Below, one piece after another: positions 11,017 to 36,918 of a stretch of 64,000 nucleotides of DNA (the stretch's first letter is position 1; each line of letters begins with the position of its first letter). Origin of the DNA: an uncultured Verrucomicrobiota bacterium (GTDB taxonomy: Bacteria > Verrucomicrobiota > Kiritimatiellia > SS1-B-03-39 > UBA6053); the NCBI GenBank assembly GCA_937127435.1, contig CAKZLZ010000052.1, positions 1 to 64,000 on the forward strand, given 5' to 3'. A program made the translations under genes and the position numbers. The notes under the pieces are model-generated. The model was not told the DNA's origin and ran no database searches. It saw nothing but the letters and a program-made list of their open reading frames with translations.

Positions 11017-13767
11017 ATGCCTTCCGACTCTCCCTCTAACCCCCGGTTAGGAACCTCGAAATGGGTTCGTACCGTCGTTACGTCCTTGTGCGCATTGGCC
11101 AGCATCTCCGCATGGGCCGCCCCTGACTGGAACCTGAACAAAGCTGAGTTTGACAACAGCAAACCGGGATCTGACGGAAAACCCTCCCTTAAAATTGCCC
11201 CGGGCGGTTCCGCCCAGTTAAAGTTGGGTACACAAGGCACTTCAGGCACCGTTACGCTGGAAGTCTGGGACGACGGCACGAACAGCATCGAAGGAAAAGG
11301 CCGGGGTGTGGGTCCACGCTGGGGTGTGTCCTCCGGGAACGGACGCGTATTGGTCGGAGGCATCATGTACGCCCCTTACCTCTCTGCTGGCGGCGCATAT
11401 TGTATCATGGACGTGAATCCCAAAGATCCCGCCGGTTGGTTTAATCTTAAATATTTCAGCACCCGGAGCAAAACACCACGGTGGCAGAAATGGGAATTTA
11501 TTTTTGATGCAAACGCGGGGGTGACCCTCAAAGTAGACGGCAAGGTCGTCCCCAAAAAACGCTTTAATTGGGATGAAAGTCAGATTGACAGCATGACCGG
11601 GGTGGTGATCTATGGAGACGACACCAAAAAACCCCAGGCACAAACACTTTGGGTGGGAAACATCACCGCCCAGGCAGGTCCGGAAATGGCTGTAAAACCT
11701 GCAGGAGCCAAACCCAGAGAAGCCGTGGTCCCCGACACGGATCCCGCTCCGGAAAAAGTATGGACCATGAAACCTGAATTTCAGAATTCCCATCCCCGTT
11801 TGCTCATCACCAAAGCGGACCTGCCTAAATACCGGGCCTTCTACAACAGCGAAGAAGGCAAACCCTGGCGGGATAAAATCCTGGCATACCTGCCCCCTTC
11901 CACGCCCCCGAAAGGCACAAAATGGCTGAAGGACGCCACCGACGCTCAACGTCAGGGATTATGGCGTCTGCCGACCGTCGCCCTACATTATCTGATGACC
12001 GGCGATCAGACTTCTCTAAATAGAACGAAAGGGTTTTTAAAAGCGTTTTATGAGCAACCCCACTGGGAAACCACCGGGGAATTGGATAGTGGGATGTCCG
12101 CCGCCAATATTATGATCGGCGCCGCCCTGGCTTACGACTGGGTTTACGACGAACTGGATCCGGAATTCCGTGAAGAATTCCGTGAAAAACTACTCTACCA
12201 TGCCCGTGCCATGTACTACGGCGGACACTTAAGACGCAACCCGGGCATTCACTATTGGCAGGCGGACCCGGCAAACAATCACCGCTGGCATCGGAATGCG
12301 GGGATGACCCTGTCGATTCTCGCCATTTATGAGGCACGTCCCGAGGAACAGTGGATTCTGGACAAAACCATTAATGAGCTAGCCTTCATCAATGAATGGT
12401 TACCAGCAGACGGGAGCTGTCATGAAGGCCCCGGATATTTCCTCTTCGGCGGAAACCACCTCACGCTGGCCATGGACGCGGCTGATATCACCTTAGGTAC
12501 CGACTTCCTGGAGGCGGATTATTTTAAACGCATGGGTGAGTTCCGGGCCTACACTCTGCTCCCAGGCATGAAAGGTGTCTTTTCTTTTGGGGATGGCGGC
12601 ACCTACGGTATGGGCGGGTATAACAACTTCCTTTTACGGGCCGCAAGCAAGTATCAACAATCTGATATTAAAGATGTCTTGTACCGCTTGGAAGAGGCAA
12701 ATACGAAATCGTACATGTTTGGCTGGTTTAACCTCGTATGGGATGATCCATCCCTGCCCCGAGGAGACATGACCAATCTGCCAACCAAAGCGTTTTTTGA
12801 AGATGTGGGATTTGCATCCATGCGGGAATCATGGAAGGACGATGCCATTGCCGCCTCGTTCATCAGCGGCCCCTTTGGCGGTCACCATCTGCTGAAATAC
12901 ACCGAGGGTGGTAAAAATTATATCAATGTCGCCCATGACGATCCGGATGCGCTGGAATTCCAGATTGCCAAAGGTGGAAATGTATTGGTCGCCACCGACG
13001 GATACTCCAAACACAAGGCCTCCCAAAATCACAATACCTTTTTGATTAATGGCATGGGGCAAATGTCCAAAGGCCGTCCCGAGGGCGGCACCTGGTCTCA
13101 ACCCGGCGGCGACATGAGCGAAATGGCCTATGTCACCTTATGGAAGGTTACCGACAAAATTACAGCTGTGGAAGGAGAAGCCGCCGGCTCCTACTTGAGT
13201 ACCAAAAATAAAAAAACCGGAAAAACCCGGCCAAAGATGGACCGCGTCCGCCGCAGTTTCATTTGGGTGGAAGGCGATTACATTCTGGTGCTGGATGAAG
13301 TCCGCGCTCCGAGTGATGTGGAGATCTCCTGGCTCATTCAATCAGATGAATTGACCGTGGAAAATGAAGCAGAAGGCCGCTTTGTATTAAGCAGGGAGGG
13401 AGATTCTCTGCCCATGCAAATATTGGCGGACCAGTCCCTGGAAACGAATATTCAACTTTCACCGGCCGATGCCAGAGGGAAAAATCTAGGATTGCAACAG
13501 CTCCGTGCCACTGCAAACACATCGAACTTAAAGGTCGTCAGCATTTATGATCCCTGGGGTCGTGGACCTTTATCGGCAACCTTAAAAACGACGGGACCTG
13601 ACAGCGCAGCCATCCTGGTAACGGGAGAGGGACTCCGCGATGTTTGGCAGTGGCAATCGGCCGCTGACAATAAAAACGGTTCTCTGCTGAAGGGAACCCG
13701 CCAGCAGGGCAACCCGGCCGGATTCCCTTTTCAAGTGGACAGCAGTGATGAAGTAACCATTCCTTAA
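11017..13767 (+). CDS. Secreted heparinase II/III-family polysaccharide lyase
   Basis: A 916-residue exported enzyme expected to cleave a uronic-acid polysaccharide by beta-elimination. It has an extended signal peptide (about 1-35, ending ISAWAAP) and an N-terminal beta-sandwich, possibly carbohydrate-binding (about 36-220). An (alpha/alpha) toroid follows, starting near HPRLLITKADLPKY (about 262) and containing NNHRWHRNAG (about 418-427). The C-terminal beta-sandwich has the heparinase-type YINVAHDDPDALEF (about 635) and NHNTFLING. It opens a cluster with GH5, a second presumed toroid enzyme and an esterase. The exact PL family and substrate (alginate, ulvan, glycosaminoglycan) cannot be assigned by eye. 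Confidence 0.85.
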   Translation: MPSDSPSNPRLGTSKWVRTVVTSLCALASISAWAAPDWNLNKAEFDNSKPGSDGKPSLKIAPGGSAQLKLGTQGTSGTVTLEVWDDGTNSIEGKGRGVGPRWGVSSGNGRVLVGGIMYAPYLSAGGAYCIMDVNPKDPAGWFNLKYFSTRSKTPRWQKWEFIFDANAGVTLKVDGKVVPKKRFNWDESQIDSMTGVVIYGDDTKKPQAQTLWVGNITAQAGPEMAVKPAGAKPREAVVPDTDPAPEKVWTMKPEFQNSHPRLLITKADLPKYRAFYNSEEGKPWRDKILAYLPPSTPPKGTKWLKDATDAQRQGLWRLPTVALHYLMTGDQTSLNRTKGFLKAFYEQPHWETTGELDSGMSAANIMIGAALAYDWVYDELDPEFREEFREKLLYHARAMYYGGHLRRNPGIHYWQADPANNHRWHRNAGMTLSILAIYEARPEEQWILDKTINELAFINEWLPADGSCHEGPGYFLFGGNHLTLAMDAADITLGTDFLEADYFKRMGEFRAYTLLPGMKGVFSFGDGGTYGMGGYNNFLLRAASKYQQSDIKDVLYRLEEANTKSYMFGWFNLVWDDPSLPRGDMTNLPTKAFFEDVGFASMRESWKDDAIAASFISGPFGGHHLLKYTEGGKNYINVAHDDPDALEFQIAKGGNVLVATDGYSKHKASQNHNTFLINGMGQMSKGRPEGGTWSQPGGDMSEMAYVTLWKVTDKITAVEGEAAGSYLSTKNKKTGKTRPKMDRVRRSFIWVEGDYILVLDEVRAPSDVEISWLIQSDELTVENEAEGRFVLSREGDSLPMQILADQSLETNIQLSPADARGKNLGLQQLRATANTSNLKVVSIYDPWGRGPLSATLKTTGPDSAAILVTGEGLRDVWQWQSAADNKNGSLLKGTRQQGNPAGFPFQVDSSDEVTIP

Positions 13768-13777
13768 GTAAATTGGC

Positions 13778-14977
13778 ATGACACTTCTCGCGTTTGACCA
13801 AATAGACCCAGAACGCATTTCGAAACAGCTTGGACAAACCGCCCCTTACCGGGCGGTCCCGGGCCGCTGGCCGAAAGAAAAAATCAATAATTGGTACCGC
13901 AGCCTCCCCTGGTTGGCCGGGACCAATTATTATCCTTCTACCGCCATCAACCAAATCGATATGTGGCAGGCATCCACCTGGGACCCTGTCACCATCGAAA
14001 AAGAACTGCAATGGTCCGAAGAGTTGGGTTTTAATACCCATCGGGTGTATTTGCATGATCAGGTGTGGCAGGCGGATGAACAGGGTCTGTACCAGCGGAT
14101 GGATCAATTTCTCAGCATGTGCACCGGCCATGGTATCCGTCCGTTTTTTGTATTTTTTGATGACTGTCATTTCCCGGAAGCACAGCTCGGCCCCCAACCC
14201 CCGGTGGTGCCTGCCTACCACAATTCCGGATGGGTCACCTGTCCCAACCGCCCCTGCGCCCTCCGTTTCGCCAAAGGGGAAGCCCATCCGGATGAAGTCG
14301 CACGTCTCAAAGGCTATGTGCAGAACACCCTCAAACGATTTGCGGATGATGAGCGGGTACTGATGTGGGAATTGTACAATGAACCCGGCCGCGGTGCGGG
14401 AGAATCAGGCCGGCAGAACGGGGATCTTGGCTACGAAGATTTTGGTGATGACTCCGCCAAACTCAATCATCAGGCCTGGGTTTGGGCGCGGGAAATCAAT
14501 CCTTGCCAACCAATTTGCACGACCACTGAGGGTTGCGTGGGTGAAATCAACTGGTCCATCAACGCACTCAATTCTGATGTACACTCCATTCACAACTACG
14601 GCAAGGCCGATCAGGTTCGTGAGCAAATTGCCGAATTCCGCAAAGATGAACGTCCCCTGTTTATGACCGAGTATTTGGCCAGGGAAAACGGGTCCACCTT
14701 CCAGGAGATCATGCCCTTACTCAAAGATGAAAAAGTGGCTGCACTCAACTGGGGCTTTGTCTCGGGAAAAACCGGAACCATCTGGCCTTGGCAATCCCGA
14801 TATCGTGAGGGCAAATTCCGGTCGGCGGATGATCTCCGAAAAGAAGGGTGCATTTTAAAAGCAGGCGACCCCTACCCTGAACCTGAAAGTTGGTTCCACG
14901 ATATCCTGCGTGAAGACGGAAGCCCCTATAATCAGGAAGAGATTGATTGCATTAAGAAATATACTGGTAGTAAGTAG
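13778..14977 (+). CDS. GH5-type glycoside hydrolase, apparently cytoplasmic
   Basis: A 399-residue (beta/alpha)8 hydrolase. The acid/base sits in MWELYNEPG (E202, the classic NEP motif) and the presumed nucleophile in LFMTEYLA (E298), the spacing expected for clan GH-A. HNYG (around 282) fits the substrate-binding His-x-Tyr of GH5 enzymes. There is no signal peptide, unlike the lyase 10 bases upstream, so it probably acts on imported oligosaccharides. It is followed after eight bases by the next gene of the operon. Beta-mannosidase- or glucosidase-type activity is possible; subfamily not assigned. Confidence 0.82.
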   Translation: MTLLAFDQIDPERISKQLGQTAPYRAVPGRWPKEKINNWYRSLPWLAGTNYYPSTAINQIDMWQASTWDPVTIEKELQWSEELGFNTHRVYLHDQVWQADEQGLYQRMDQFLSMCTGHGIRPFFVFFDDCHFPEAQLGPQPPVVPAYHNSGWVTCPNRPCALRFAKGEAHPDEVARLKGYVQNTLKRFADDERVLMWELYNEPGRGAGESGRQNGDLGYEDFGDDSAKLNHQAWVWAREINPCQPICTTTEGCVGEINWSINALNSDVHSIHNYGKADQVREQIAEFRKDERPLFMTEYLARENGSTFQEIMPLLKDEKVAALNWGFVSGKTGTIWPWQSRYREGKFRSADDLRKEGCILKAGDPYPEPESWFHDILREDGSPYNQEEIDCIKKYTGSK

Positions 14978-14985
14978 ACGCCACT

Positions 14986-17142
14986 ATGAAAGCAAACCCA
15001 TCGTATGTAGATCTCCTTTCCCCCTGGCCCTCGGCCATCCAAAAACACCTTTTCCGCTTTCCCGGCAATAAGAATCTGGCTTGTTACGGTCCCGGCAATC
15101 AGGGCCACTGGGCCCAACAGGCAAATACCACCGCCGCATCCGCCTTGGCCGTGCTTGCGGTAGACCCCGGCTTCAATGAACAACAGGCAGGCATGGGCAG
15201 GGAGGAAATGCTGGATTGGGCACTGGCCATGATTCGGTTTACGGCCTCCACCCATCATGCCGGCAACAGTAAAACGACAGACGGTAAAAGCTGGGGGCAT
15301 TCCTGGATTTCCAGTTTGTGTCTGGACCGGCTTTGGCATGCGGTTGAAGCCCTCGGAGATCTCATCCCCGAAGAGGATCAGGCCCTGCTCCACAAAGTAC
15401 TTTTGTCCGAAGCGGATTGGATACTGGAACAGTATACCATTGTCGCAGGTCCCGTGGACCACAACAAACCAGAAAGCAACATCTGGAATGGCTGCCTGCT
15501 CCACCGCGCCGCCCGCATGCTTCCTGAAGCACCGAATGCAAATGCCTACCTCGATAAGGGGACCCGCTTTTTATTAAATGGAATTTCCACGCCGGAAGAT
15601 GCGTTCTCCGATGTGTTGATTGAAGGGAAGCCCCTCTCTGAGTGGCATGTGGGAAACAATATGTTCTCCAGCATGGGCTGCAACCACCACGGTTACCAGA
15701 ACGTAGGGTATATGGTCATCTGCCTGTCAAATATTGCCATGATGCACTTCCACTGCAAAGCAAACGGATGGGAAGCACCTACCGCCCTCTATCATCATGC
15801 GGAAGAGCTTTGGAAGGTGGTGAAAGCCTGTACTTTTGATGACGGCAGACTCATGCGTATTGGAGGCGATACCCGGGTGCGGTATTGCTACTGCCAGGAT
15901 TACTGTATTCCCACTTGGCTGTGGGCCCGTGACTATTTGGGAGATATGGACACCCTGAACTACGAACAAGGCTGGCGGAAACAGGTGGCCAAAGAAGTCA
16001 AAACCAACGGGGATAACACCTTTCTCTCCACCCGATTAAAAACGCTCGATGAAGTCTCTCCCCTCTACTATTTGCGTCTGGAGGGTGATCGGGCCTGTAC
16101 TTTGGGAATGGGCGCTTATTGGAATCGGAAACACGCTTTAGACCGCACCGAGCCGCCGAAAGACGCGCCACAGCCCCTGAACCTGTGGCAGGATGACTAT
16201 CACGGATCCTGTATGGCACGCGGTGAAAACCGCATGGCCTCATGGACCTGGCGGGCTGCCGAAGCCCCTCAGGCGCTGATGGTTGCCAAAGACCAAAGCG
16301 CCATGGCGGAATGGAGGAATAATCTGGCGGGACAAGTCTACGGTGTGGGCCGCATGAACTTACCGAAATGTGAATGGGAGCAGGCTGAAACTTTTGCCGG
16401 TGGATTTGCAACTTGTGGAACGGTTACCATCCACACCAGCGATCCCGTGGCCGAGGGTGATATCCCCACAGATGTCGCAAATATTGATCTGGCCTGCGTC
16501 GCCATGCCGGATGACCAAACCATGGTAATTCTGCAACGGGCCCGGGCCATCGGCCGACCCTATTTAAGTTCGGTCAAGGGGCTTTTCTTCAATGTGGCCA
16601 ACGACTTGTTTAATGACTTTTCAAGAACCGTTTATGATTCTGACGGGAGCAAAGAGCTCCAGACCTGCCCGACCGAAAGCGAAACGCTTGCGGTTTCCGG
16701 AAACTGGCTGAACATCGATAACAGTCTGTCCGTCATCAAAGTCTATGGTGCGGAACTTTGCATTCACCGTCCGAAAGAACGACAGGTAACCATCCAACCG
16801 AAACACGGACGGTACCAGGTTTTAGATGCCGGTGGCAGCCTTTACGCGGAGGAAATTTGTTGTGGATGTAAAACCGGTATGCATGCAAATGCCCCGGATG
16901 CCACCCTCTTTGATCTCGGGGTGATCCTCAAAAGCGGACAAACGGCGGCCGAGACTGAACAATCCCTGCAGGCATCACCGCCCACGGCCTTGACCTTCAC
17001 CCATCCAGACCTTCGGGGCATCGAACTGACAGATGCAAACGGAGATCTCCAACGGGTAGTGGTCAACTTTTCCAACCAGGCTGTCGCGGAAGAAGGCGAA
17101 AACTATCCGGCAAAACAAGTTCATATCCTGCCGGGAAAATAA
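14986..17142 (+). CDS. Unassigned large protein, probable alpha/alpha-toroid glycan-processing enzyme
   Basis: A 718-residue protein without signal peptide. Residues about 20-420 show helical-hairpin periodicity with many Trp/His residues (for example SWGHSWISSLCLDRLW, ESNIWNGCLLHRAARM, and a MGCNHHGYQNVGYM segment), typical of (alpha/alpha) toroid lyases and hydrolases. The rest is beta-rich, as in the sandwich domains of heparinase-like enzymes. It is unusually cysteine-rich for this fold (CYCQDYC, CCGCK), consistent with a cytoplasmic location. It is translationally close to the GH5 gene. I do not recognise a named family; lyase, hydrolase or isomerase activity are all possible. Confidence 0.65.
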   Translation: MKANPSYVDLLSPWPSAIQKHLFRFPGNKNLACYGPGNQGHWAQQANTTAASALAVLAVDPGFNEQQAGMGREEMLDWALAMIRFTASTHHAGNSKTTDGKSWGHSWISSLCLDRLWHAVEALGDLIPEEDQALLHKVLLSEADWILEQYTIVAGPVDHNKPESNIWNGCLLHRAARMLPEAPNANAYLDKGTRFLLNGISTPEDAFSDVLIEGKPLSEWHVGNNMFSSMGCNHHGYQNVGYMVICLSNIAMMHFHCKANGWEAPTALYHHAEELWKVVKACTFDDGRLMRIGGDTRVRYCYCQDYCIPTWLWARDYLGDMDTLNYEQGWRKQVAKEVKTNGDNTFLSTRLKTLDEVSPLYYLRLEGDRACTLGMGAYWNRKHALDRTEPPKDAPQPLNLWQDDYHGSCMARGENRMASWTWRAAEAPQALMVAKDQSAMAEWRNNLAGQVYGVGRMNLPKCEWEQAETFAGGFATCGTVTIHTSDPVAEGDIPTDVANIDLACVAMPDDQTMVILQRARAIGRPYLSSVKGLFFNVANDLFNDFSRTVYDSDGSKELQTCPTESETLAVSGNWLNIDNSLSVIKVYGAELCIHRPKERQVTIQPKHGRYQVLDAGGSLYAEEICCGCKTGMHANAPDATLFDLGVILKSGQTAAETEQSLQASPPTALTFTHPDLRGIELTDANGDLQRVVVNFSNQAVAEEGENYPAKQVHILPGK

Positions 17143-17173
17143 ATTTCTATTCACTCACCAACCAAATACTTCC

Positions 17174-18121
17174 ATGAGATTCCCGGCACGAATACTTTTA
17201 ACCATGATCCTAAGCACGACCCTTTGGGGAGAAGATATGAAACCAGCATTTAAACGCAGTGAAGCCGTTACGGAGAGATCAGACTTTGGTCCCCGCATCG
17301 ACCGTTTCACCCTCTATTCACCTTCCATGAAACGGGACATCAAAGTAGTGGTTGTCCTGCCTGCGGCCTACTTCGAAAACCCTGCCGACACCTTTCCGGT
17401 TCTCTATACCCTGCATGGCCACGGGGCCCCATATGATACCTGGGCCACCATGCCGAATCTTTTAAAACAACTAAACAAGACGCCTTTTATTTATACCTGC
17501 TTCGACGGAGACAACGGCAGCTTTTATATCGATGCCCCAACCCCGGTTCAAACTGCACGTAAAAATTCTCCCAACGAAAACGATCCCCAACTTTCCCTTT
17601 TCCAAACCTTCTTTTTCGATGAGTTTATGCCTGCGATCGACCATTGGTACCGGATCAATCCCCAGGCCCGGGGCGTAACCGGTTTCTCCATGGGCGGAAA
17701 CGGCGCCCTGACCTACACTCTCAATCACCCGGAAATGTTTACTGCTTCCAGCGGGCTCTCCACTGCTTTTTTTGATTTTTCAATACCTGACTCCAAAGGC
17801 AAGAAACGGTTATTGAAAGTGCTGGGTCCCTATGAAGAACATCCCGAGTGGTACCAGGCTGTGGACCATTACGTCAAATTACAAAAACTTCTCGACGAAG
17901 GCGTGCAACTTCCTCCCATGTATCAACACATCGGCAGCGAAGATTTCCTCTTAAAAGAAAACCGCAAGTTCAAAGATTTCGCCAAAGCCAAGGGTCTGGA
18001 TCTGAGCTATGAAGAAAGTCCGGGAGAACACAATTGGAAGTTCTGGAATGCCGCCAGTGTGGGTGTGGCTGAATTTCATTGGACCTACTTCCAAAAAGCG
18101 GTTGCGGAAACGAATCCCTAA
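17174..18121 (+). CDS. Secreted CE1-like (esterase D/FrmB-type) alpha/beta-hydrolase
   Basis: A 315-residue esterase with signal peptide (about 1-19, ending LWGE). The fold starts with VVVVLPAAYF and LYTLHGHGA (oxyanion region). The nucleophile elbow GFSMGG places S172, and the catalytic His is H286 in GEHNW. Members of this family remove acyl or feruloyl/acetyl groups from sugars, or act on formylglutathione. The secretion signal and the surrounding carbohydrate genes favour deacylation of a polysaccharide. It is the last gene of the plus-strand run and converges on the GH51 gene with a five-base gap. Confidence 0.85.
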   Translation: MRFPARILLTMILSTTLWGEDMKPAFKRSEAVTERSDFGPRIDRFTLYSPSMKRDIKVVVVLPAAYFENPADTFPVLYTLHGHGAPYDTWATMPNLLKQLNKTPFIYTCFDGDNGSFYIDAPTPVQTARKNSPNENDPQLSLFQTFFFDEFMPAIDHWYRINPQARGVTGFSMGGNGALTYTLNHPEMFTASSGLSTAFFDFSIPDSKGKKRLLKVLGPYEEHPEWYQAVDHYVKLQKLLDEGVQLPPMYQHIGSEDFLLKENRKFKDFAKAKGLDLSYEESPGEHNWKFWNAASVGVAEFHWTYFQKAVAETNP

Positions 18122-18126
18122 GCGGT

Positions 18127-19851
18127 TTATTTCTTTAAGACCAGGCAACTGATACTCCGGGGAGGAACCGTAAAGTTTCCGTCCTTAAGGGTCACCTGCT
18201 GCGCTTCCTCTGTAAAGTGCCGGTAAGCTTCATCTGCAGGTTCATCCCGGGCCAGCATCACATACAAAGTGGCTTCCGCATCTGCGGCCACATGAAAACC
18301 TGAAAGGTTCACGGTCTGCTCCTGCTCAAAGGAGCGGTTGATCATATGGACAAAAACCGAATCATCATCCACAGTGGAGACCGCATCAAATTGTGATACG
18401 GAATGTTTATGCCATCTCAAATCATAAAGGGGTTGATGCTCTTTATGATTTTCGATGGTGAGGGGAAGAAAGAAGGCCCCGTGATGCTTCCGATAAAACC
18501 AGGAGGTCTGACCCTGTGCACCATAATGAAGGGGTGCACCGTCCCTTCCTGAATAATTTACCGCGGCGATGTCCCAGCCTTTGCCGATCAACATACGTTG
18601 GGTCGCAAGTTCAGTCGCGGACGCATCACGAAAAAATCCGTGGTACATGGATGCGATCCCCAGACCTACCGCGTTGCGGAAAGGGAACCCCACTTGCCCG
18701 TCCGCCTTCTGCCATCCCCAGCCATTCCAATTCCATTCGGTATAGGCCATCTTATATCCCAGGGAAGTATATTCATTCCCACTGCGGTTAAACGCCATGC
18801 ACATCCCGTCGGTATAAACCCCGGGCATCGCACTCAGCCGCATCCAGTAATCATAAGGATGTTCAATCCCTTCCACGGGTACGTCCTCCCCTTCCCGCGT
18901 TAAGGTGTATGAAGACATCGGGCTGTAAAAATGTTTGGCGAGAAAACCGACTTCCTTCCGGATCTCCGGATCCCGCAAAACGATTTGATCCACCTTAAAC
19001 ATCATACCTTCGTCGATAATGATTTTAATATCGGGATCAATTTCCCGGATGAGCCGGACATAAGTAAGGATACATTCCTTCATCCATTCCGCCACCACCT
19101 GCCGTTGAGCTTCCGTCGGTTTCACGTCCCCGCCCCGAAGCCCCGGATCTAATCCCAGGCCCACCAGCACATCTTTTTCCCAACGGTCCAAAAACCATTC
19201 ATTTCCGATCTGTACATATTCAGCGCCGAAAGGTTCGGAATGTCCATTTTCAGCCCGGATCGCCGGCCAGTCCGGCATGCCTTCCGGCAAATCCGCCCCC
19301 TGCGGGGCATTACAGTAGGCCAAAATCCCCACATGATTCACGGCGGCTTCCCGAAGGGGTTTTTTACGGGCACAGGCTTCCAAAAAGTTCAAAACGATGA
19401 TCGTTTCATTGCCCAGCGTTTTTTGCAGATTCCAATATTCGTCCCAACCAAAGTTATTGGTGATGGTGTGATTTGTCGGATCTTTGAATGAGAAATACAT
19501 TCCCCGGGTGACCGGCCGCTCAGTGCCGAACCTTCCGGGGACATGATCGATCATGTCCCGCCAATCAATGTAATCGATGTCTGATCCGCCGGGAAACCGG
19601 ATAACCGGAATCTTCATGGCCTGAATCAACTCCAGCGCTTCCGCATCCAGATTTCCATCCGCATCGCAAATTCCTTCAGGCCCCGGTTCACCAAAGCTGG
19701 CCCGTTCCAAAAATTGCCCGAATATTTTCTCAGGAATGGGGTGAGTGGGCTCATCGCCCAATTGTAGTTTCACAACCGGCAGTTCGGATTGACTGAACAA
19801 AGAGGTAGACATCATGATGAACGCAATAAAGGGAAGGCGGTTAATTTTCAT
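18127..19851 (-). CDS. Secreted GH51-type alpha-L-arabinofuranosidase-like hydrolase
   Basis: A 574-residue exported enzyme with signal peptide (about 1-21, ending SLFSQ). GH51/clan GH-A marks are clear: IFGQFLERA near the N-terminus, IRFPGG (84-89), the acid/base E218 in QIGNEW, and the presumed nucleophile E372 in YTEWNWNG. A C-terminal beta-sandwich (about 480-574) follows the barrel, as in arabinofuranosidases. Such enzymes release terminal arabinofuranose, but GH51 also includes endoglucanases, so the activity remains a prediction. The facing esterase is likely part of the same pathway. Confidence 0.85.
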   Translation of the reverse strand: MKINRLPFIAFIMMSTSLFSQSELPVVKLQLGDEPTHPIPEKIFGQFLERASFGEPGPEGICDADGNLDAEALELIQAMKIPVIRFPGGSDIDYIDWRDMIDHVPGRFGTERPVTRGMYFSFKDPTNHTITNNFGWDEYWNLQKTLGNETIIVLNFLEACARKKPLREAAVNHVGILAYCNAPQGADLPEGMPDWPAIRAENGHSEPFGAEYVQIGNEWFLDRWEKDVLVGLGLDPGLRGGDVKPTEAQRQVVAEWMKECILTYVRLIREIDPDIKIIIDEGMMFKVDQIVLRDPEIRKEVGFLAKHFYSPMSSYTLTREGEDVPVEGIEHPYDYWMRLSAMPGVYTDGMCMAFNRSGNEYTSLGYKMAYTEWNWNGWGWQKADGQVGFPFRNAVGLGIASMYHGFFRDASATELATQRMLIGKGWDIAAVNYSGRDGAPLHYGAQGQTSWFYRKHHGAFFLPLTIENHKEHQPLYDLRWHKHSVSQFDAVSTVDDDSVFVHMINRSFEQEQTVNLSGFHVAADAEATLYVMLARDEPADEAYRHFTEEAQQVTLKDGNFTVPPRSISCLVLKK

Positions 19852-19989
19852 GCAGAATTTCTGAATGAAAATTCTTCGAATTCAAGCGGAACCCTGAAAA
19901 ATAATCAAACGAGTGATTGAATTGACAAATCAATGAAAACCAAACATGAAAGAACGATACGTTTTCAAAGTACCCACCCCATTGATCTT

Positions 19990-21417
19990 ATGCAACATAT
20001 CCGATTCAACTTTACATTACTCCTGCTTCTTACTGCCGGCATACTCCATGGGGCTCCCTCAGATACACTCACATCATTTGGTGTCACCTGGAAGTTTGAC
20101 CGCCCGGTTGAAAACGGAACCTTTATCACCGGAGATCCATGGATTATCGGCCCCGCACAAGTGATTGCGATTACCAACGATAAAAACGATCCTAATTTCT
20201 CCCCCAAGAAAGGACAAAACGGATCGATGTTGAACCCCTTGTCCGATCCGAAAGGCCGAAACCATCAGGGTTACGATGAAAGTTTAAATTCATATAAAGA
20301 ATCCTTAAATGCCGCCCTGCCAAATGGTGAACCCGTAAGCGGATCCAACCCCATCCAGCTTCGGGCTGGAGACTCATTAATCTCCATGGTCAGTTGGTTG
20401 TATAACAGTCAAAGTGATGCGGAAGCAGGAATCCCCTCTTTCAATGGTGGAACCAAAGCCCCGCGGCCGGTCACCCGTTCTGCCAGTATTCTGACCGTGC
20501 TGGACAAAGCACCGCCTGCAAACAGCTTCCGCCCTCCCTATGTGAAAGATTTCAGAGGCAAATTTCACACCCTCAATGAAATACGATGGGACCGGCTCAA
20601 AAATCTGCCTGCACCGTCATCCGCTCCGGATGCCAACAGACTCATCCAAAAAGTTGACCGCCCATGGGTGGATCACGTTTTTGAATATCTGGGAGCCATG
20701 GTGCATCCTTCAGAGCACATGCCGAATTACGGTCGGGACATGGGCAATATCATCGGCAATGCGACCCTGCTGGTAAACACCGATATCCCCCTGAAACAAA
20801 AGCAACAACTGTCGATTTATCTCATCCAATACGGAATTGATCTCACCGGGATTGCGGATGCAGGCGGTGGCTGGCGCGCAAACGGCGGACATGCACTCGG
20901 ACGTAAATGGCCTATTCTTTTTACCGGCATTCTACTGGATGATTCCCATATGCTTGAAGTTGGCGAATGGGACCGCACCTTCAATCAAGGGGTGGAATTC
21001 CAGGAAGATCAAAATTATTTTTACGTGTCCGATGCCGAAGTGGATTTAACCAACAGCTCGAAATGGAAACCCGACCACCGCAATGTGAAAAAAGGTCAGG
21101 CAAATCCCTACACGGAGCAAGACATCGGCATGCCGGAATGGGGCATCCGCCACGCCTACAAGCCCCAGTCCGACAACAATCATATGAATGCGGTTTATCG
21201 AGACATCAATGGCGGGGTTGCACCGGCATTTGCATTGGCGGCCCTTATCATGGGCGGACGGGATGCATGGAACCACGAAGCTTTCTTTGATTATCAGGAC
21301 CGATACATGAGTCATCCCGAGCGGCCGGCCCGTGGCACAAATGCTGTGGATAGCTTTGTTCAGAACATGTGGGAAATGTACCGGAAAGATTATCCCCCGG
21401 TTTGGACATCCAAATAG
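19990..21417 (+). CDS. Secreted protein of unknown family, glycan-locus associated
   Basis: Start ATG 19990 is chosen because it gives a clean signal peptide (MQHIRFNFTLLLLLTAGILHG); an in-frame ATG at 19933 would add 19 polar residues before it. The mature protein (about 455 aa) begins with a beta-rich domain (SFGVTWKFDRPVENGTFITG, then GDSLISMVSWLY). A region rich in His, Trp and Gly follows (WRANGGHALGRKW, DNNHMNAVYRDINGG) with helical spacing. It could be a two-domain carbohydrate-active enzyme with a helical toroid. No known catalytic signature is recognisable. It sits upstream of the alginate-export-type porin gene. Confidence 0.65.
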   Translation: MQHIRFNFTLLLLLTAGILHGAPSDTLTSFGVTWKFDRPVENGTFITGDPWIIGPAQVIAITNDKNDPNFSPKKGQNGSMLNPLSDPKGRNHQGYDESLNSYKESLNAALPNGEPVSGSNPIQLRAGDSLISMVSWLYNSQSDAEAGIPSFNGGTKAPRPVTRSASILTVLDKAPPANSFRPPYVKDFRGKFHTLNEIRWDRLKNLPAPSSAPDANRLIQKVDRPWVDHVFEYLGAMVHPSEHMPNYGRDMGNIIGNATLLVNTDIPLKQKQQLSIYLIQYGIDLTGIADAGGGWRANGGHALGRKWPILFTGILLDDSHMLEVGEWDRTFNQGVEFQEDQNYFYVSDAEVDLTNSSKWKPDHRNVKKGQANPYTEQDIGMPEWGIRHAYKPQSDNNHMNAVYRDINGGVAPAFALAALIMGGRDAWNHEAFFDYQDRYMSHPERPARGTNAVDSFVQNMWEMYRKDYPPVWTSK

Positions 21418-21621
21418 AAATTTTTCAGGTCTCCACCTGAAGAATCCCGTGGGAAAAAGCAGCGGTCAGACTTTGATCCGTCCTTTTCAGTCCGCCTCTT
21501 TCCATGCCGGGAATCAAACGGGGTGGCGCCCCGGAAAATTATATTTGCATATGGAAAAACCCGCTTGACCTCTCGCTTTAATAGGCAAAGATGAGCATGC
21601 ATTAACCCATATCAAATAATT

Positions 21622-22875
21622 ATGAAAAATTCCCACCCATTCATTCGTACGACGCTCTCGCTCACACTTCTCAGTGGCATGACCCTTCTTCATGCGCAGG
21701 AAGCCGAACCCCCAAAGGGCAACCTGCCTTTTCTGGAAGCTCTTTCCAACGGAACGCCATGGGCCCAAATCCGCCTTCGCTATGAAACAGCCGATCAGGA
21801 AGGCAAAGAAAATGCCATCGCGGAAACCGGGCGCATTCGCCTGGGATACGAAACGGAATCCTGGTTTAATTTAAAAGGAGGCATGGAGTTTGAAGCTTCC
21901 CGGGCCGTGGACGTGGACAGCTATAATGCGGCGGGTGTAACTGGAAATCCGGACAAGTCCGTCATCGCAGATCCACCCACAACGGAAGTGAATCAGGCTT
22001 ATCTGACCTATACCTACGAAGACAACAGCCTGCAAGTGGGCCGCCAACGTCTGGTTATCGGCAATGTGCGCTTTGTGGGAGATGTGGGTTGGCGTCAGAA
22101 CAACCAGACCTTCGATGCCGCCACTTTCCGAAGCACAGCATTGAATGATGTCAGCTTTCTCTACAGCTACATCAACCAAGTCAACCGCATCTTCGGATCC
22201 GAAGCCGCCCCCGAGCGGAGCAACCCGGAATCTGACAGTCACGCTGTTTATATCACCTACGGAGGATTGGAAAATATAGACCTTGGCGCTTATACATATT
22301 TACTGGATATCGAAGGTGCGGCCGAAGTCGCCACCAACTCTTACGGTGCCTTTGCTTCCGGAAAACACGCACTCACCGATGCTTCGACCTGGGGATGGCG
22401 TTTGGAAGGCGCCTATCAGGAGAGCGCCTCCAGCAATCCAGAAGACTATGATGTGATGTACTACCACCTCACCCTCAACAGTGGATGTGAGTTTGCGGAT
22501 GTGGTCCTTGGCTTCGAATCCCTTGGTTCCGACACAGCGACTTCCGGAGAAAACCGTTCTTTCAGCACCCCCTTGGCAACACTGCATAAATTCAATGGAT
22601 GGGCGGATGTCTTTTTGACCACTCCCCCGGAAGGGCTGGAAGATTTTTATATCGCACTGGTAGGTAAACTTCCCAAAGAAGTTATCGCCAAAGCGATCTA
22701 TCATGATTTCAGTTCTGAAACCGGCAGTATGAGCTACGGAGATGAAATTGATCTGTGGTTGGAAAAGGATTTTCCCGCCCTCGGAAAAGTCATCCTCAGT
22801 TATGCCAATTATTCCGCCAATGAATTCGGCGTAGACACCGAACGCTTTTCCGTGGAACTGAATGTCGCCTTTTAA
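21622..22875 (+). CDS. Alginate-export-type outer-membrane porin
   Basis: A 417-residue exported beta-barrel protein with signal peptide (about 1-25, ending LLHAQ). The mature part opens with an alginate-export-domain pattern (WAQIRLRYETADQEG, then TGRIRLGYETESW). LTYTYEDNSLQVGRQRLVIGNVRFVGDVGWRQN is represented by alternating strands characteristic of AlgE-like and related 16-18-stranded porins. The protein ends in a beta-strand (FSVELNVAF) with terminal Phe, as required by the BAM machinery. It is the only outer-membrane uptake candidate in the locus and may replace a SusC/D system for acidic oligosaccharides. Confidence 0.85.
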   Translation: MKNSHPFIRTTLSLTLLSGMTLLHAQEAEPPKGNLPFLEALSNGTPWAQIRLRYETADQEGKENAIAETGRIRLGYETESWFNLKGGMEFEASRAVDVDSYNAAGVTGNPDKSVIADPPTTEVNQAYLTYTYEDNSLQVGRQRLVIGNVRFVGDVGWRQNNQTFDAATFRSTALNDVSFLYSYINQVNRIFGSEAAPERSNPESDSHAVYITYGGLENIDLGAYTYLLDIEGAAEVATNSYGAFASGKHALTDASTWGWRLEGAYQESASSNPEDYDVMYYHLTLNSGCEFADVVLGFESLGSDTATSGENRSFSTPLATLHKFNGWADVFLTTPPEGLEDFYIALVGKLPKEVIAKAIYHDFSSETGSMSYGDEIDLWLEKDFPALGKVILSYANYSANEFGVDTERFSVELNVAF

Positions 22876-22916
22876 GAATTAGGTCTGCACCCTCTCAATT
22901 ATCGACGGGGAAATTC

Positions 22917-22944
22917 AACCCACCGAATGAAAATCCGGTGGGTT
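22917..22944 (+). terminator. Hairpin between convergent genes, possible terminator
   Basis: Nine-bp perfect stem (AACCCACCG with CGGTGGGTT) and ten-base loop in the gap between the porin gene and the convergent hydrolase gene. There is no strong T-run on either side, so termination efficiency is doubtful. Confidence 0.45.
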
Positions 22945-22985
22945 CCCTTACCTGATGTCGATGGAGAGTCTTCACCCCTCAAAAA

Positions 22986-24095
22986 TTACACCAGAGCCTG
23001 GTACGCCAGGCGTTTCACATGATCCATAATCCCGGTGGGCACATTCGCCCGCACCTGAATCATAATCATAACCACCATATTTTCTTCGGGACTAATCCAG
23101 ATCTGGGTTCCGGCAGCCCCTCCCCATCCGAAGTCACCTTTACAAGCCAGACTGCGGGAACGGTGAGGATCTGTCATGACTGAAACTCCCAGACCAAATC
23201 GGAAAGACTGAATACCGATTTCCAGATTGGGATGCCCCACAGGTAAATGATCAGCCGTCATCAAATCCACGGATTTGCGACCTAAAATGGTTCCCCCGGG
23301 GTAATGCCCCTTGTTCAACAACATCCGGCAAAAAGTCATATAATCAGCCGCCGAGGACAACAGTCCTGCGGAACCGCTCAGATAAGGATTCTCCCGGCGA
23401 AAACGACTCTCGGGACCCGACGGATCCTGCACCGTCAATTTTCCTTCCTGGTGATATTGATAACACACCGTGAAACGCTCAGCTTGGTCTTCCCGCAGTG
23501 TGAACCCGGTATCTTTCATCCCCAATGGTTCAAAAATCCGCTCTTGCAGGAAGACATCAAAAGATTTCCCGCTTACAATTTCGACGATGCGTGCCAGGAC
23601 ATCGGTCGAATAGCCGTAGATCCATTTTGTGTCCGGTTCTGCAGCCAGCGGCAGCGTGGCCAGTTCATCGCAGAAACTTTCCAGGCTATGGTCCGATGCA
23701 AGCAGCCCTTCTAAATTGTGTTTCTGATCCAGCCCGCCACAGTGGCGGAGCAAATCGTAAATGGTACATTCATGATCAGCGAATGCGGGAATATAAACAC
23801 CCGCCTTGTCATTTAAATCGAGGCCCCCTTCTTCGTATACCATCAACAATGCCACCGAAGTCACGATTTTGGTCATCGAATAAATCCTGAAAATACTGTC
23901 TTCCCCCATGGGTAATTTTTTTTCAATATCCCGCCAGCCTTGCACATCCCGGTAAACATTTTTACCGTTGCGCTCTATGAGCGTCACCGCCCCGGGAAGT
24001 TTCCCCGAGGAAACCTTTTCTTCAATATAATCATGAATCCGTTGTAATCGTTCCGGACACAAACCTGAATCGACAGAAGCAGTATGTTCACTCAT
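22986..24095 (-). CDS. Class C beta-lactamase-like serine hydrolase
   Basis: A 369-residue serine hydrolase of the penicillin-binding-protein fold. The nucleophile motif SMTK (S73, K76) and a YST motif (in YGYSTDVL, replacing YxN) are present. There is no signal peptide, so it is probably a cytoplasmic esterase (EstB-like) rather than an antibiotic-resistance enzyme. A GAGG ribosome site precedes the ATG. It follows the upstream secreted-protein gene by 13 bases and is probably co-transcribed. Deacylation of an imported sugar is a reasonable guess. Confidence 0.85.
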   Translation of the reverse strand: MSEHTASVDSGLCPERLQRIHDYIEEKVSSGKLPGAVTLIERNGKNVYRDVQGWRDIEKKLPMGEDSIFRIYSMTKIVTSVALLMVYEEGGLDLNDKAGVYIPAFADHECTIYDLLRHCGGLDQKHNLEGLLASDHSLESFCDELATLPLAAEPDTKWIYGYSTDVLARIVEIVSGKSFDVFLQERIFEPLGMKDTGFTLREDQAERFTVCYQYHQEGKLTVQDPSGPESRFRRENPYLSGSAGLLSSAADYMTFCRMLLNKGHYPGGTILGRKSVDLMTADHLPVGHPNLEIGIQSFRFGLGVSVMTDPHRSRSLACKGDFGWGGAAGTQIWISPEENMVVMIMIQVRANVPTGIMDHVKRLAYQALV

Positions 24096-24108
24096 CTTAA
24101 CCTCAAAG

Positions 24109-25440
24109 TTATTGTTGGGCAGACCAGACAGCAGGTGTACGCGGAATCACGACCGTGTCTTCTTCTACCGGTTGGTTGATCTGATCATAAAAAGTTTTCG
24201 ATGCCTCATCCTCCAAATATTTCTTACCGAAACCGATGAAGGGCTGTGCCGTATCCGGGTTTAAATATTTTTCCTGAATATATCCTTCCGCACCTACGCC
24301 CCCTTTCCAAGAGCTGGCAGCATTCGCCAACTGCTGGGCTTCGTGAGGGCCTTGAAAGGCGAGTTGATGTATAACCGGGTCGAAGTTGGCAAGTTCCGGT
24401 GAAAGAAAACGCCCTTTAATCCACTTACTGGTTTCACCACTCACCGAGCGGTATTCCGGATTTTCCATGTCGCCGTTCCAACACATTTCTTTTTGTGTTT
24501 TAATGAAACGGGCAAGATCTTCATCATCAAACAACAAACCGTGACGGTAAAGATTTACGGCAATAGAAACCGAGGAAACATACCATGCTGCATTCGGATC
24601 GGGGGCCATCCAGCCGACCCGCCATGCATCCTCTTTCTCCGGATGAATATCCCATTCCCCCGCCGGCACCCAGGACATCCATTCATAATGACCGTCCTTC
24701 AAAATCAGATTTGATTTATACCAGGCCCCCACCTGCAGCGCCCGCTGCATGTAAACCGGATTTTCCGTCACGCGGTAGAGTGCGAGGAGTCCATTCACCA
24801 TGATCGAAAGCTTCTCAAAGGAGAGACTTACCCCTTCCTGGATCGGATAATCCAACCAACGATAGACGCCCCCCTTTCCGGGGATTTCCCTGAAGTGTTC
24901 ACGGGCATCCCACTTGGGGAAAAGCTGTTCTTCCATCAGGGTCAAATACTGTTTGATGGTCTCTGCATTTTCAGTGGCATAATCCTCATCCTGTTTTGCC
25001 AATTCCACCCAACGGGCCAGAATGCCGACAGCCCGGAAATTGGTTTGAATCTCATCCACTTCAAGCGCCGGATTGTCTTTAGGTTTGCGGTCCGGCAAGG
25101 TCGGGCCGTACCATCCCAAATATCCGTCAGGTCCTTTTTCCATCAGCCCTTGAAATACCGCAAAGCTGTCCCGGAACAGGTCCAAATATTTTGTATCGCG
25201 GGTCAGCTCGTAACTCGTCAACATCCCGTTCAAATACCGGAACTCCACCCAACAAAATCCTTCCGGCCCCTTTTCTTTCAGCTTTGCTTTCAGTTTATCC
25301 GTATCTACATTTTGAGCAAAGTCTGTCATGTGCGCAGTAAATGCTTCCTGAATCTTCAGATCCGATGCGGTCGGTTCCTGCGAATAGAGAGAGAATCGGC
25401 ACAGGGCCAATAGAATACAATATATTCCGGTTTTTATCAT
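24109..25440 (-). CDS. Secreted protein with predicted alpha/alpha-barrel, unassigned
   Basis: ATG at 25440 is chosen because GGAG lies six bases upstream; a TTG four codons earlier is less likely. The protein has 443 residues with signal peptide MIKTGIYCILLALCRFSLYS. The mature part repeats helical pairs with hydrophobic and aromatic faces (FRYLNGMLTSYELTRDTKYL, KLSIMVNGLLALYRVTENPVY), as in six-hairpin glycosidase folds, and has a Trp-rich segment (HYEWMSWVPAGEWD) that may line a sugar groove. No family signature is recognised. It is the first gene of a pair with the serine hydrolase. Confidence 0.65.
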   Translation of the reverse strand: MIKTGIYCILLALCRFSLYSQEPTASDLKIQEAFTAHMTDFAQNVDTDKLKAKLKEKGPEGFCWVEFRYLNGMLTSYELTRDTKYLDLFRDSFAVFQGLMEKGPDGYLGWYGPTLPDRKPKDNPALEVDEIQTNFRAVGILARWVELAKQDEDYATENAETIKQYLTLMEEQLFPKWDAREHFREIPGKGGVYRWLDYPIQEGVSLSFEKLSIMVNGLLALYRVTENPVYMQRALQVGAWYKSNLILKDGHYEWMSWVPAGEWDIHPEKEDAWRVGWMAPDPNAAWYVSSVSIAVNLYRHGLLFDDEDLARFIKTQKEMCWNGDMENPEYRSVSGETSKWIKGRFLSPELANFDPVIHQLAFQGPHEAQQLANAASSWKGGVGAEGYIQEKYLNPDTAQPFIGFGKKYLEDEASKTFYDQINQPVEEDTVVIPRTPAVWSAQQ

Positions 25441-25597
25441 TTTTTGCTCCAAGGGTAAGGTACAACGATTGATCTAAAGATGCTCAAAATTCAATCAGGA
25501 AAGAGTGAAATATAGTGTTTCGCAATATACCTGCGATATCACAACCAGGACAAGTCAGCTAAAAGCAAGTTTCCGTTCTCCGAAGTGAATTAAAAAC

Positions 25598-26596
25598 TTA
25601 TTTCCAATCCACTGTGACTTCACCCGCATCCACGGGAACCTCGATGAGAAGTTTATCCTGAAGCACCGTATGTCTTAATGCCTGTCCCTTTCCGTTAAGT
25701 GCCCTGGCGACTTGAACATTCGCCTGCGGGATGACCACAGTTAAATCCGAATTAAATGTCGCCACATCTTCCAGGGAGCTCGCGATGGAAAAGGTCAGCT
25801 GATGGTCAGACTGCTTCACCATGACGATTTCCGAATGCTCCCGTTGCCATACGTAGCGGCCCACCGTTCCCATGGGGGCAATCCAGAGTTTATCCTGTTG
25901 GGATACCAGCCACTCACAATGGATCCGGAACTGCTCTTTACTGTCGAAGGGTGAATACCCTGACACAATGGCATGCACCATTGGAATCACCCACTCGCCC
26001 TCATCAATGGATGTAAGGATTTTTTCACGCATCTTTTCTTCATTCCACTTACGTTTCCCGGCATTTCCGTAGGTCATCCGTCGTGCCTGAGGCAATAGGT
26101 TGTTGTCCCGGATAAAATAATGATGCTCTTGAATTTTTTCAACTACCGGCTCGGTGAGTTTCGAACCACCCGGCATCGCATAGGATACCGGTACCTGTCC
26201 GGTCCGTTCTGCGATCAATTTCCAAGAGCCATTCACCAACCAATCCAACGTTTCAGCATCCACTTCATGAAGTTTTTGCCCCACATACCCGTGAGTCCCT
26301 AATTCGTGTCCCTGCTTAAGCAAGGCGTTCGCCTCCTCCCAATTGATGGTGGCCGCACGTTTTTTGGGGCCTTCCATCGCTTCGGGAATAAGAAAAAAGG
26401 TTCCCTTAATTCCCAAAGGTTCAATAATCTCAATGGTATTGTTCACCTGACCACGAAACCCGTCATCAAAAGTAAAACTGAAAGCCGCAGCTTTGTCATC
26501 TTTATAAGGGGCAAGTCGCACTTGAGCAAAAAGGGAAGAAATGGATGTAAGGAAGAAAATGCTGAATAAAAAAGGGAAACGGAAGGTTGGTTTCAT
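25598..26596 (-). CDS. Secreted polysaccharide deacetylase (NodB/CE4-like)
   Basis: A 332-residue exported protein with signal peptide (about 1-25, ending SLFAQ). The NodB homology domain has motif 1 TFDDG (42-46) and motif 2 HELGTHGY (97-104) with H102 as likely metal ligand. A weaker GGS/P barrel motif (MPGGSK) follows. The C-terminal ~90 residues are a beta-rich extension (QLTFSIASSLEDV onward). The enzyme would remove N- or O-acetyl groups from a polysaccharide. The first metal His of classical HxxxH is altered to HELGTH, so metal binding needs checking. It faces gcvT divergently. Confidence 0.85.
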   Translation of the reverse strand: MKPTFRFPFLFSIFFLTSISSLFAQVRLAPYKDDKAAAFSFTFDDGFRGQVNNTIEIIEPLGIKGTFFLIPEAMEGPKKRAATINWEEANALLKQGHELGTHGYVGQKLHEVDAETLDWLVNGSWKLIAERTGQVPVSYAMPGGSKLTEPVVEKIQEHHYFIRDNNLLPQARRMTYGNAGKRKWNEEKMREKILTSIDEGEWVIPMVHAIVSGYSPFDSKEQFRIHCEWLVSQQDKLWIAPMGTVGRYVWQREHSEIVMVKQSDHQLTFSIASSLEDVATFNSDLTVVIPQANVQVARALNGKGQALRHTVLQDKLLIEVPVDAGEVTVDWK

Positions 26597-35088: not shown

Positions 35089-36918
35089 ATGAAATCTCTT
35101 CACATTAGCTTCCTTTTCATCTCCCTGACCTCATTTCATTTACACGCAAAATCCCTCCAGGTGACCCAAGCCATGCAAAATCTTTCTCCGACCCATCCCC
35201 GGCTTTTTCTGAATCAGAAAGGAGAAGCGGATCTGAAAGCAAAGATCGCCCGCAATCCCTCCCTCCAACCCCTTGCAGACCGTATTGTGGAAACCGCCGC
35301 GGAATTCCTGACACTTCCCCCTGTGGAACGGGAACTTGAAGGAAGAAGGCTGCTTGATGTCTCCCGTACCGCACTGTCCCGGATTACCCATCTCAGCATG
35401 GCGTATCGGCTGACCGGCGAAGAAAAATACGCAAGAAGAGCCATTCAGGAAATGACCGCTGCCGCCGGATTCTCAGACTGGAATCCCAGCCACTTTCTGG
35501 ACACCGCGGAAATGACCGCTGCGCTGGGTTTGGGCTATGACTGGTGTTATTCAGCAATGAGTCCGGAGGAACGCGACCTCATTGCCCATGCCATTCTGGA
35601 GAAAGGACTCCGCAGCTCCCTTCCGGATCCGGAAACCGGCGAGCATCCGGGCTACACAAAATCTCATCACAATTGGAACCAGGTCTGCAACGGCGGTCTG
35701 GCCGTGGGAGCCCTGGCGGTGGCGGAACGGGACCCCGCCCTTGCGATGATGATTATCGACCGTGCAGTAAAGTACCTTCCGGAGGTCATCAAAACCTACG
35801 CCCCTGACGGCGCCTATGTCGAAGGCCCCATGTACTGGACCTATGGCACCACTTTCAATGTGATGTTTCTGGATGCGGTTGAAACCGCCCTGGGAACCGA
35901 CTTCGGCCTCGGAAGCATGCCCGGTTTTCTGGAGTCCGCAGATTTCATGCAACACATCACCGGCCCCTCGGGTCTGTACTTCAATTTTGCAGACTGCAGT
36001 GAAAAAGCCTCTCTGCAACCGGCACTGTTTTGGATGGCCCGCCGGTGGGAGCAGCCCTCGCTGCTGTGGAGCCAATGGCAGTTTCTTCAGGCCACAGGGA
36101 GTACCCAGCGGAGCCGCTTCATGCCCTTCCTCCTCATCTGGGCACCGGAAGAAACCCAGAAAGAAAAACCCTCTCTTACCCACTGGCATGGTGACGGATC
36201 CATGCCGGTGGCCTTTCACCGCTCCCACTGGGGAGCTGATGCCACCTATGTTGCCATCAAGGGCGGCTCCCCCAAGCTGAATCACGCACACATGGATGTG
36301 GGATCTTTTGTTCTGGAAATGAACGGGGTCCGCTGGGCCTACGATCTGGGCAAGGTCAACTATCACCATGTCGAACGGGAAGGCATCCAGCTCTGGAACA
36401 GCGCTCAGGATGCTGAACGCTGGAAAATCTTCCGCCTCGGAAGCTTCTCCCATAACATTTTCACCGTGAACGGTCAGCAACAACGGGTGGAAGGCGAGGC
36501 CCCCATCCTCAGTTCCACCCCCGCACCCGAACATAAAACCGTGGTGGATCTCTCGGAATTGTACCTGGGACAGCTCGATGAGGCCCTCCGGTCCATACGT
36601 CTGATCGACCCCAACCATGTCCTGCTGGAAGACCGGGTAAAAACGCCTGCAAAACCCACCCGGATCCGCTGGGGAATGGTCACCCGGGCAAAAGTGGAAC
36701 GACTGAACCCTCAAGTCGTAAGCCTGAAGCAAAACGGCCAGATGCTGTTGGCCCGCATTGAAGGGCTGGCGCATGCAGAATGGCAGGTGCAGAATATTTC
36801 AAAACCGATCCATGACTGGGAGCCGGAAAACCCCGGAGCCAGCATGCTGATTTTTGAAGCGGATCTTCCCGAAGATTCCGAAAGCGTCTGGCAGGTTCAC
36901 TTTCAGGAAGCCCGCTAA
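35089..36918 (+). CDS. Secreted heparinase II/III-family lyase (second copy type)
   Basis: A 609-residue exported enzyme with signal peptide (about 1-20, ending LHAK). The toroid domain starts with HPRLFLNQKGEADLKAKI and includes GYDWCYSAM and HHNWNQVCNGG (about 193-203), the segment around the expected catalytic Asn/His/Tyr of this fold. The C-terminal sandwich contains NHAHMDVGSFVLEMNGVRWAYDLG (cited here in part, about 397-416) and SHNIFTVNG. It differs in domain content from the 916-aa lyase at 11 kb, which carries an extra N-terminal domain. A role in uronate release fits the mannonate dehydratase nearby. Confidence 0.87.
   Translation: MKSLHISFLFISLTSFHLHAKSLQVTQAMQNLSPTHPRLFLNQKGEADLKAKIARNPSLQPLADRIVETAAEFLTLPPVERELEGRRLLDVSRTALSRITHLSMAYRLTGEEKYARRAIQEMTAAAGFSDWNPSHFLDTAEMTAALGLGYDWCYSAMSPEERDLIAHAILEKGLRSSLPDPETGEHPGYTKSHHNWNQVCNGGLAVGALAVAERDPALAMMIIDRAVKYLPEVIKTYAPDGAYVEGPMYWTYGTTFNVMFLDAVETALGTDFGLGSMPGFLESADFMQHITGPSGLYFNFADCSEKASLQPALFWMARRWEQPSLLWSQWQFLQATGSTQRSRFMPFLLIWAPEETQKEKPSLTHWHGDGSMPVAFHRSHWGADATYVAIKGGSPKLNHAHMDVGSFVLEMNGVRWAYDLGKVNYHHVEREGIQLWNSAQDAERWKIFRLGSFSHNIFTVNGQQQRVEGEAPILSSTPAPEHKTVVDLSELYLGQLDEALRSIRLIDPNHVLLEDRVKTPAKPTRIRWGMVTRAKVERLNPQVVSLKQNGQMLLARIEGLAHAEWQVQNISKPIHDWEPENPGASMLIFEADLPEDSESVWQVHFQEAR

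Follow-up and report, generated by a model that had tools for sequence, protein, structure and literature searches.

The stretch analysed here (the window) comprises 64,000 nucleotides of contig C52 in a 5.2-Mb draft genome, designated G000; other G numbers denote the genomes of relatives, and C numbers denote contigs. The host is a member of the Kiritimatiellota, and not of the Puniceicoccales, in which the original prediction had proposed a synteny search, and it shares its genus with isolates B1221 and B12222, neither of which is named in any paper that we could find. Positions 11017-26596 of the window are filled by ten consecutive open reading frames (ORFs), g1 to g10, which had been put forward as a run of carbohydrate-related genes, three of them without an assignable family. 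In the list below, GH and CE denote glycoside hydrolase and carbohydrate esterase families.

g1, 11017..13767, + strand: secreted 916-residue polysaccharide lyase of the heparinase II/III superfamily (predicted), with an N-terminal ConA/LamG-like module at approximately residues 60-215
g2, 13778..14977, + strand: cytoplasmic GH5-like (clan A) enzyme, outside the conserved core
g3, 14986..17142, + strand: cytoplasmic 718-residue protein without a family match
g4, 17174..18121, + strand: secreted alpha/beta-hydrolase esterase (PF00756) with a GFSMG serine motif
g5, 18127..19851, − strand: secreted GH51-like clan-A glycosidase, 82% identical to its B1221 counterpart
g6, 19990..21417, + strand: secreted protein; the ORF opens at 19933, and orthologues and the signal peptide indicate 19990 as the probable start
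g7, 21622..22875, + strand: porin of the Opr/Alginate_exp type, a lineage-specific insert
g8, 22986..24095, − strand: cytoplasmic serine hydrolase of beta-lactamase/esterase fold
g9, 24109..25440, − strand: secreted protein without a family match; probable start at 25440, from orthologues and the signal peptide
g10, 25598..26596, − strand: secreted CE4-type polysaccharide deacetylase

Gene content and conservation of the locus

The genes are divided between the two strands and form at least four transcription units (g1-g4, +; g5, −; g6-g7, +; g8-g10, −), so that the locus is not one operon. Signal peptides were predicted for g1, g4-g7, g9 and g10 and for none of g2, g3 and g8, and a check of N-terminal hydrophobicity agreed, which bears out the division into exported and cytoplasmic enzymes that had been proposed. 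Pfam models matched g1, g2, g4, g7, g8 and g10, leaving g3, g6 and g9 as the three proteins without a family. The lyase, esterase, GH5- and GH51-like and deacetylase matches place several carbohydrate-active enzymes (CAZymes) no more than a few genes apart and, together with the conservation in B1221 described below, identify the locus as a CAZyme gene cluster (CGC).

As originally predicted, no TonB/SusC-type or SusD gene was found by Pfam among the ten, and the locus lacks the adjacent susC/susD-like pair that marks a Bacteroidota-type polysaccharide utilisation locus (PUL). No SusD was detected in 12 relatives; the genome of the window encodes four TonB-dependent receptors. The sole SusD match in this genome is on a contig (G000:C219; L109) of 41% GC, compared with approximately 51-53% elsewhere, and we set this gene aside as probably foreign or a contaminant in the draft. 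Verrucomicrobiota strains without SusC/D, in which such clusters are called PUL-like or CGC, have already been published (PMC11980603). Since the absence of SusC/D is usual in the group and has this precedent, it is no sign of the new type of utilisation locus that had been suggested. The type of locus is already known; three of its eight conserved genes are outside known families, so that part of its chemistry is undescribed. It resembles the SusC/D-less CGCs of Verrucomicrobiota and Planctomycetota (PMC11980603, PMC11131199) in its clustered, mostly secreted CAZymes and in having no SusC/D or local TonB receptor, and differs from them in that g3, g6 and g9 have no known family. Like the SusC/D PULs of Bacteroidota, it would combine exported enzymes with intracellular ones that act on a single polymer, but no SusC/D, surface glycan-binding protein, hybrid two-component regulator or sigma/anti-sigma regulator was seen in it.

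Eight of the ten genes are syntenic in B1221, where g2 and g7 are missing. The flanks common to the window and B1221 are aroC, an outer-membrane protein gene and TauE on one side and GCVT, a YfcE-like gene and SulP on the other, and between them B1221 has g1, g3, two copies of g4 (a tandem duplicate, L013 9335-11294), g5, g6, g8, g9, a 5-kb insert and g10. We conclude from the order of these eight genes that the cluster is real. B12222 has retained only g3, beside aroC and the outer-membrane protein gene. Scattering of the genes in relatives had been named in advance as an outcome that would speak against the locus; it applies to the porin and GH5 genes, which are scattered or absent, and does not apply to the other eight.

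Proteins with and without recognised families

The lyase g1 matched the DUF4962/heparinase-II/III-like model PF16332 and, in the PDB, the polysaccharide lyase (PL) family 15 exo-oligoalginate lyase Atu3025 (3a0o; 1e-20) and a PL35 chondroitinase (9o3q; 3e-17), with which it aligns over 500 and 330 residues respectively. Residues H422, Y474, H640 and HNT672-674 are kept across full-length homologues, and H422 and Y474 are the equivalents of H311 and Y365 of Atu3025, so that both the sequence match and the catalytic His/Tyr place g1 in the heparinase II/III superfamily. Within the superfamily, Atu3025 is the best PDB match, though a weak one, and PL35 is nearly equal. From both of these enzymes g1 differs by its low identity, its extra N-terminal ConA-like module and the lack of an H531 equivalent in pairwise alignment. 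It is 86% identical to its orthologue in B1221, and full-length g1 is found in eight of 146 genomes of the class. A second heparinase-II/III-like lyase (PF07940, PF16332) is encoded outside the locus at 35089-36918 (+), and has a counterpart in B1221 (L022 6371-8233).

The deacetylase g10 matched PF01522 (7.3e-14, 52.2 bits) and has the TFDDG metal motif at residue 42, as in CE4; it is 73% identical to its B1221 orthologue and 43% identical to a relative in G009 that lies beside relatives of g3 and g6. For g8 the match was to PF00144 (8.8e-61), with an SMTK motif and 90% identity to B1221, and distant PF00144 relatives adjoin g6 genes in G178. The GH5 assignment of g2 comes from a weak match to PF00150 that is over the cut-off (27.5 against 23.5 bits) together with NEP201-203 and TEY motifs; a PDB search gave no relative, and there is no homologue in genomes G001-G011 or in B1221 and B12222. 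Matches of g5 to GH51 arabinofuranosidases (ArfA/GH51) were weak, covered residues 34-225 only and fell far under the NCBIfam cut-off, and the protein carries GNE216-218 and TEW motifs. The lyase, esterase and deacetylase of the original prediction are confirmed, GH5 by a weak match, and g5 may be a GH51 enzyme.

No match in Pfam, NCBIfam or the PDB was obtained for g3, including searches with a g3 profile, or for g9. Identity of g3 is 81% to B1221 and 71% to B12222, and in the latter the orthologue is followed, 3 bases on, by a gene for a secreted PL14 lyase (L014 11171-11947), the sole other glycan gene seen there. A poor structural model suggests a helix-rich N-terminal half and a beta C-terminal half for g3. 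A relative of g9 on G009:C319 overlaps the following gene, which is a divergent g6 relative. In g9 relatives on G000:C156 and G004:C119 a module was recognised by the g1 profile and corresponds to the N-terminal module of g1 (24% identity over 144 residues by BLAST). In g9-like proteins encoded at L131 8827-10893 and L132 3071-5134 this module is C-terminal; it is an unassigned domain of carbohydrate-binding type that two enzyme families have in common. No phage relatives of g3 or g9 were found, and profiles of g3 and g6, when compared with g1 and with one another, yielded no match.

The g6 family in bacteria and phages

Searches of Pfam, NCBIfam and the PDB with g6, by sequence and by profile, gave no match, and no Pfam model matched the core of 16 bacterial family members, a few relatives carrying appended known modules. 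The family is present in 7 of 146 genomes of the class and 13 of 388 of the phylum, often in several copies. A PF01522 deacetylase gene lies within 10 kb of eight of 27 g6 loci, compared with 1.5 expected from the density in each genome (P 4e-5, or 2e-4 if the B1221 orthologue is omitted and 9e-4 if the large G037 cluster is omitted as well), P values that serve as a guide as the loci were not randomly drawn. A cluster at 82-144 kb of G037:C29 (L087-L090) contains six or seven g6-family genes with a g1 relative, a GH2 gene and ABC transporter genes. Relatives of g1 and g6 occur together in G000, G004, G013 (where the g6 relative is a fragment) and G037, always within approximately 10 kb.

G178, which belongs to another family of the same phylum, has this set again: one stretch encodes g6 together with two lyase-type proteins (one with Hepar_II_III_C, Alginate_lyase and CBM6 domains, the other heparinase-like), a PF00144 hydrolase, a GH78-type rhamnosidase and a deacetylase-like protein. 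One contig of G009, from another genus of the same family as the host, carries a g3 fragment, an FAD oxidoreductase, g6, a pectate-lyase-like protein, a sulfatase, the g10 relative and an MGH1-like glycosidase. In G302, G382 and G296 the g6 relative is embedded in an exopolysaccharide synthesis cluster that also encodes sugar transferase, Wzz, Wzy-like and glycosyltransferase proteins; g6 genes in such clusters of three Verrucomicrobiota genomes are at L122 9698-11128, L123 8826-10841 and L124 9457-11886.

In 20 records of Mycobacterium phages, whose hosts are M. smegmatis, the g6 domain likewise makes up the C-terminal portion of a tail protein (E 1e-47). It can be seen in Halley gp45 (MH077579.1 38266-40386; L136 11290-13410), a 706-residue minor tail protein whose gene adjoins lysin A: the N-terminal 221 residues correspond to the minor tail module phrog_8174, whereas homology to g6 covers the C-terminal 440 residues (30% identity, E 1e-47). 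The whole protein belongs to phrog_34846, a PHROG without an assigned function, and g6 aligned with the profile of this PHROG over residues 24-447 (E 1e-47), as expected of a member. Halley gp45 differs from g6 in that the domain is fused to the tail module and not to a signal peptide, its target being the mycobacterial surface. The cluster J mycobacteriophage members are annotated as hypothetical, as minor tail protein or, in Redno2, as 'lysin A'. Two Microcystis phage proteins annotated 'carbohydrate esterase' contain the domain as well (Mwe-JY25, L137 5911-9426; Mwe-JY07, L138 143-2317), and in one of these two phages tail-fibre genes lie beside the g6-domain gene. No g6 relatives were found on plasmids, nor in scans of IMG/VR with g6 and the Microcystis phage protein, which reach close relatives only. 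In the family tree the Halley domain falls within the bacterial part, where it groups with a G254 protein (100/99), and phages most likely acquired the domain from bacteria. The tail of a phage, behind a minor-tail module, is the usual place for enzymes that attack host surface glycans.

The polar residues invariant in 26 family members are R200, Y266, Q299, D303, R324 and Y422. Arg and Tyr together with a single invariant acid would suit a lyase somewhat better than a two-carboxylate glycosidase. Most likely g6 represents an undescribed family of enzymes, lyases or hydrolases, that cut the polysaccharide backbone. We would give roughly even odds to a fuller proposal: that g6 founds a new polysaccharide-cleaving family spanning Verrucomicrobiota glycan loci, exopolysaccharide synthesis clusters and mycobacteriophage tail tips, and that g3 and g9 represent two further new carbohydrate-active families that work with it.

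A proposed pathway and its alternatives

Our preferred reading, to which we give a probability of about 0.6, is that the locus is a SusC/D-independent CGC for the degradation of an acylated, probably uronate-containing polysaccharide. It draws on gene content, conserved order, family matches, predicted localisation and the pairings that recur in other genomes (g1-g6, g6-deacetylase, g6-g9 and g3-lyase), and from these we infer what the substrate is, what g3, g6 and g9 do and in which order the steps run. Extracellularly or in the periplasm, g10 and g4 would deacylate the polymer, g5 would remove side chains, and g1, and probably g6, would break the chain, either by elimination or by hydrolysis, with the assistance of g9. 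Oligomers would then enter through transporters encoded elsewhere. In the cytoplasm g3 would process the fragments and g8 would remove remaining esters, with g2 also acting in the species of the window; within the genus, g3 adjoins lyase genes (g1 in B1221 and PL14 in B12222). The lyase superfamily of g1, the PL14 gene beside g3 and the linkage to CE4 make it probable that the substrate carries acetyl groups and uronates. Branching, in addition to acylation and uronates, is plausible, and rhamnose is possible from the GH78/GH106-type neighbours of relatives. A bacterial exopolysaccharide is as possible a substrate as an algal polymer.

Several observations weigh against this reading. The activities of the members are all predictions from sequence, and g1 is too distant from characterised lyases for a substrate to be read from it. 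AlphaFold models of g3 (from 3 sequences; mean predicted local distance difference test score, pLDDT, 39) and g6 (from 2 sequences; pLDDT 29) were too poor for a fold search. No transporter or regulator gene is present among the locus genes, and a search of its intergenic regions for LacI-type operators or shared motifs gave nothing convincing. Relatives of g3 in G013 and G054 do not adjoin glycan genes. Finally, mycobacterial surface glycans are not, to our knowledge, uronate-rich, so that uronates need not be the target of g6 itself.

A possible though clearly less probable explanation is that the locus turns over or remodels exopolysaccharide of the cell itself or of its neighbours, and not an algal polymer, with the lyase, deacetylase and g6 trimming the matrix. 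The g6 relatives inside exopolysaccharide synthesis clusters fit with this, as do the phage tail relatives, which attack bacterial surfaces, and among relatives in the Kiritimatiellota the Pontiella strains produce an N-sulfated, glycosaminoglycan-like exopolysaccharide (PMC7356697). However, the locus has no glycosyltransferase or exopolysaccharide export gene and yet encodes three predicted cytoplasmic catabolic enzymes, and the g6 relatives of G000, G009 and G178 are found beside sulfatase, fucosidase or rhamnosidase genes.

It is improbable that the locus is a loose assembly of unrelated neighbouring carbohydrate genes with no single substrate. The several transcription units on both strands, the recent GH5 and porin inserts, the 5-kb insert before g10 in B1221, the survival of g3 alone in B12222 and the failure to find a common operator would all be accommodated, but the order kept in B1221 and the recurrence of the g1-g6, g6-CE4 and g6-g9 pairings in other genera would not.

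The original prediction had the AlgE-like porin g7 import the lyase products in a dedicated stepwise route. The porin does lie between g6 and g8, and it matches both the Opr-family model and, weakly but over the cut-off, Alginate_exp (PF13372). In B1221, however, neither the locus nor the rest of the genome encodes such a porin, despite the eight retained partners, and B12222 has none either. Five of its six close relatives (G000:C181, G001, G005, G006 and G008; the exception is G037) are encoded just upstream of nitrite/nitrate reductase genes, and this sets them apart from other Opr-family and Alginate_exp porins. Downstream are a nitrite/sulfite reductase-type gene, a flavodoxin-type reductase gene and, where the stretch extends, a molybdopterin oxidoreductase gene, with one small ORF intervening in G008; judged by Pfam content, for which the G000 operon and G005 NirA were run, these operons would serve assimilatory nitrate reduction. 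The nitrate-operon porins match the same weak Alginate_exp model, four of five tested exceeding the cut-off, and g7 and the nitrate-locus porin encoded on G000:C181, in the same genome, are sisters (94/94). Five of the six g7 relatives thus lack the location expected of AlgE, in an alginate or other glycan system, though g7 itself sits in a glycan locus. We consider uptake through g7 the least likely of the explanations; g7 is best regarded as a stray relative of the nitrate-locus porin, one that arrived recently and would be dispensable for the system.

The locus points to three protein families missed by public models. The best of these is g6, and its family, including the phage members, is the part of the locus worth following, as it offers a single assayable domain across glycan-degradation loci, polymer-synthesis clusters and well-studied laboratory mycobacteriophages. 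If g6 cleaves polysaccharide, it would constitute a new CAZyme family and explain hypothetical phage tail proteins, and it would provide a handle on how phages pass through the outer layers of mycobacteria.

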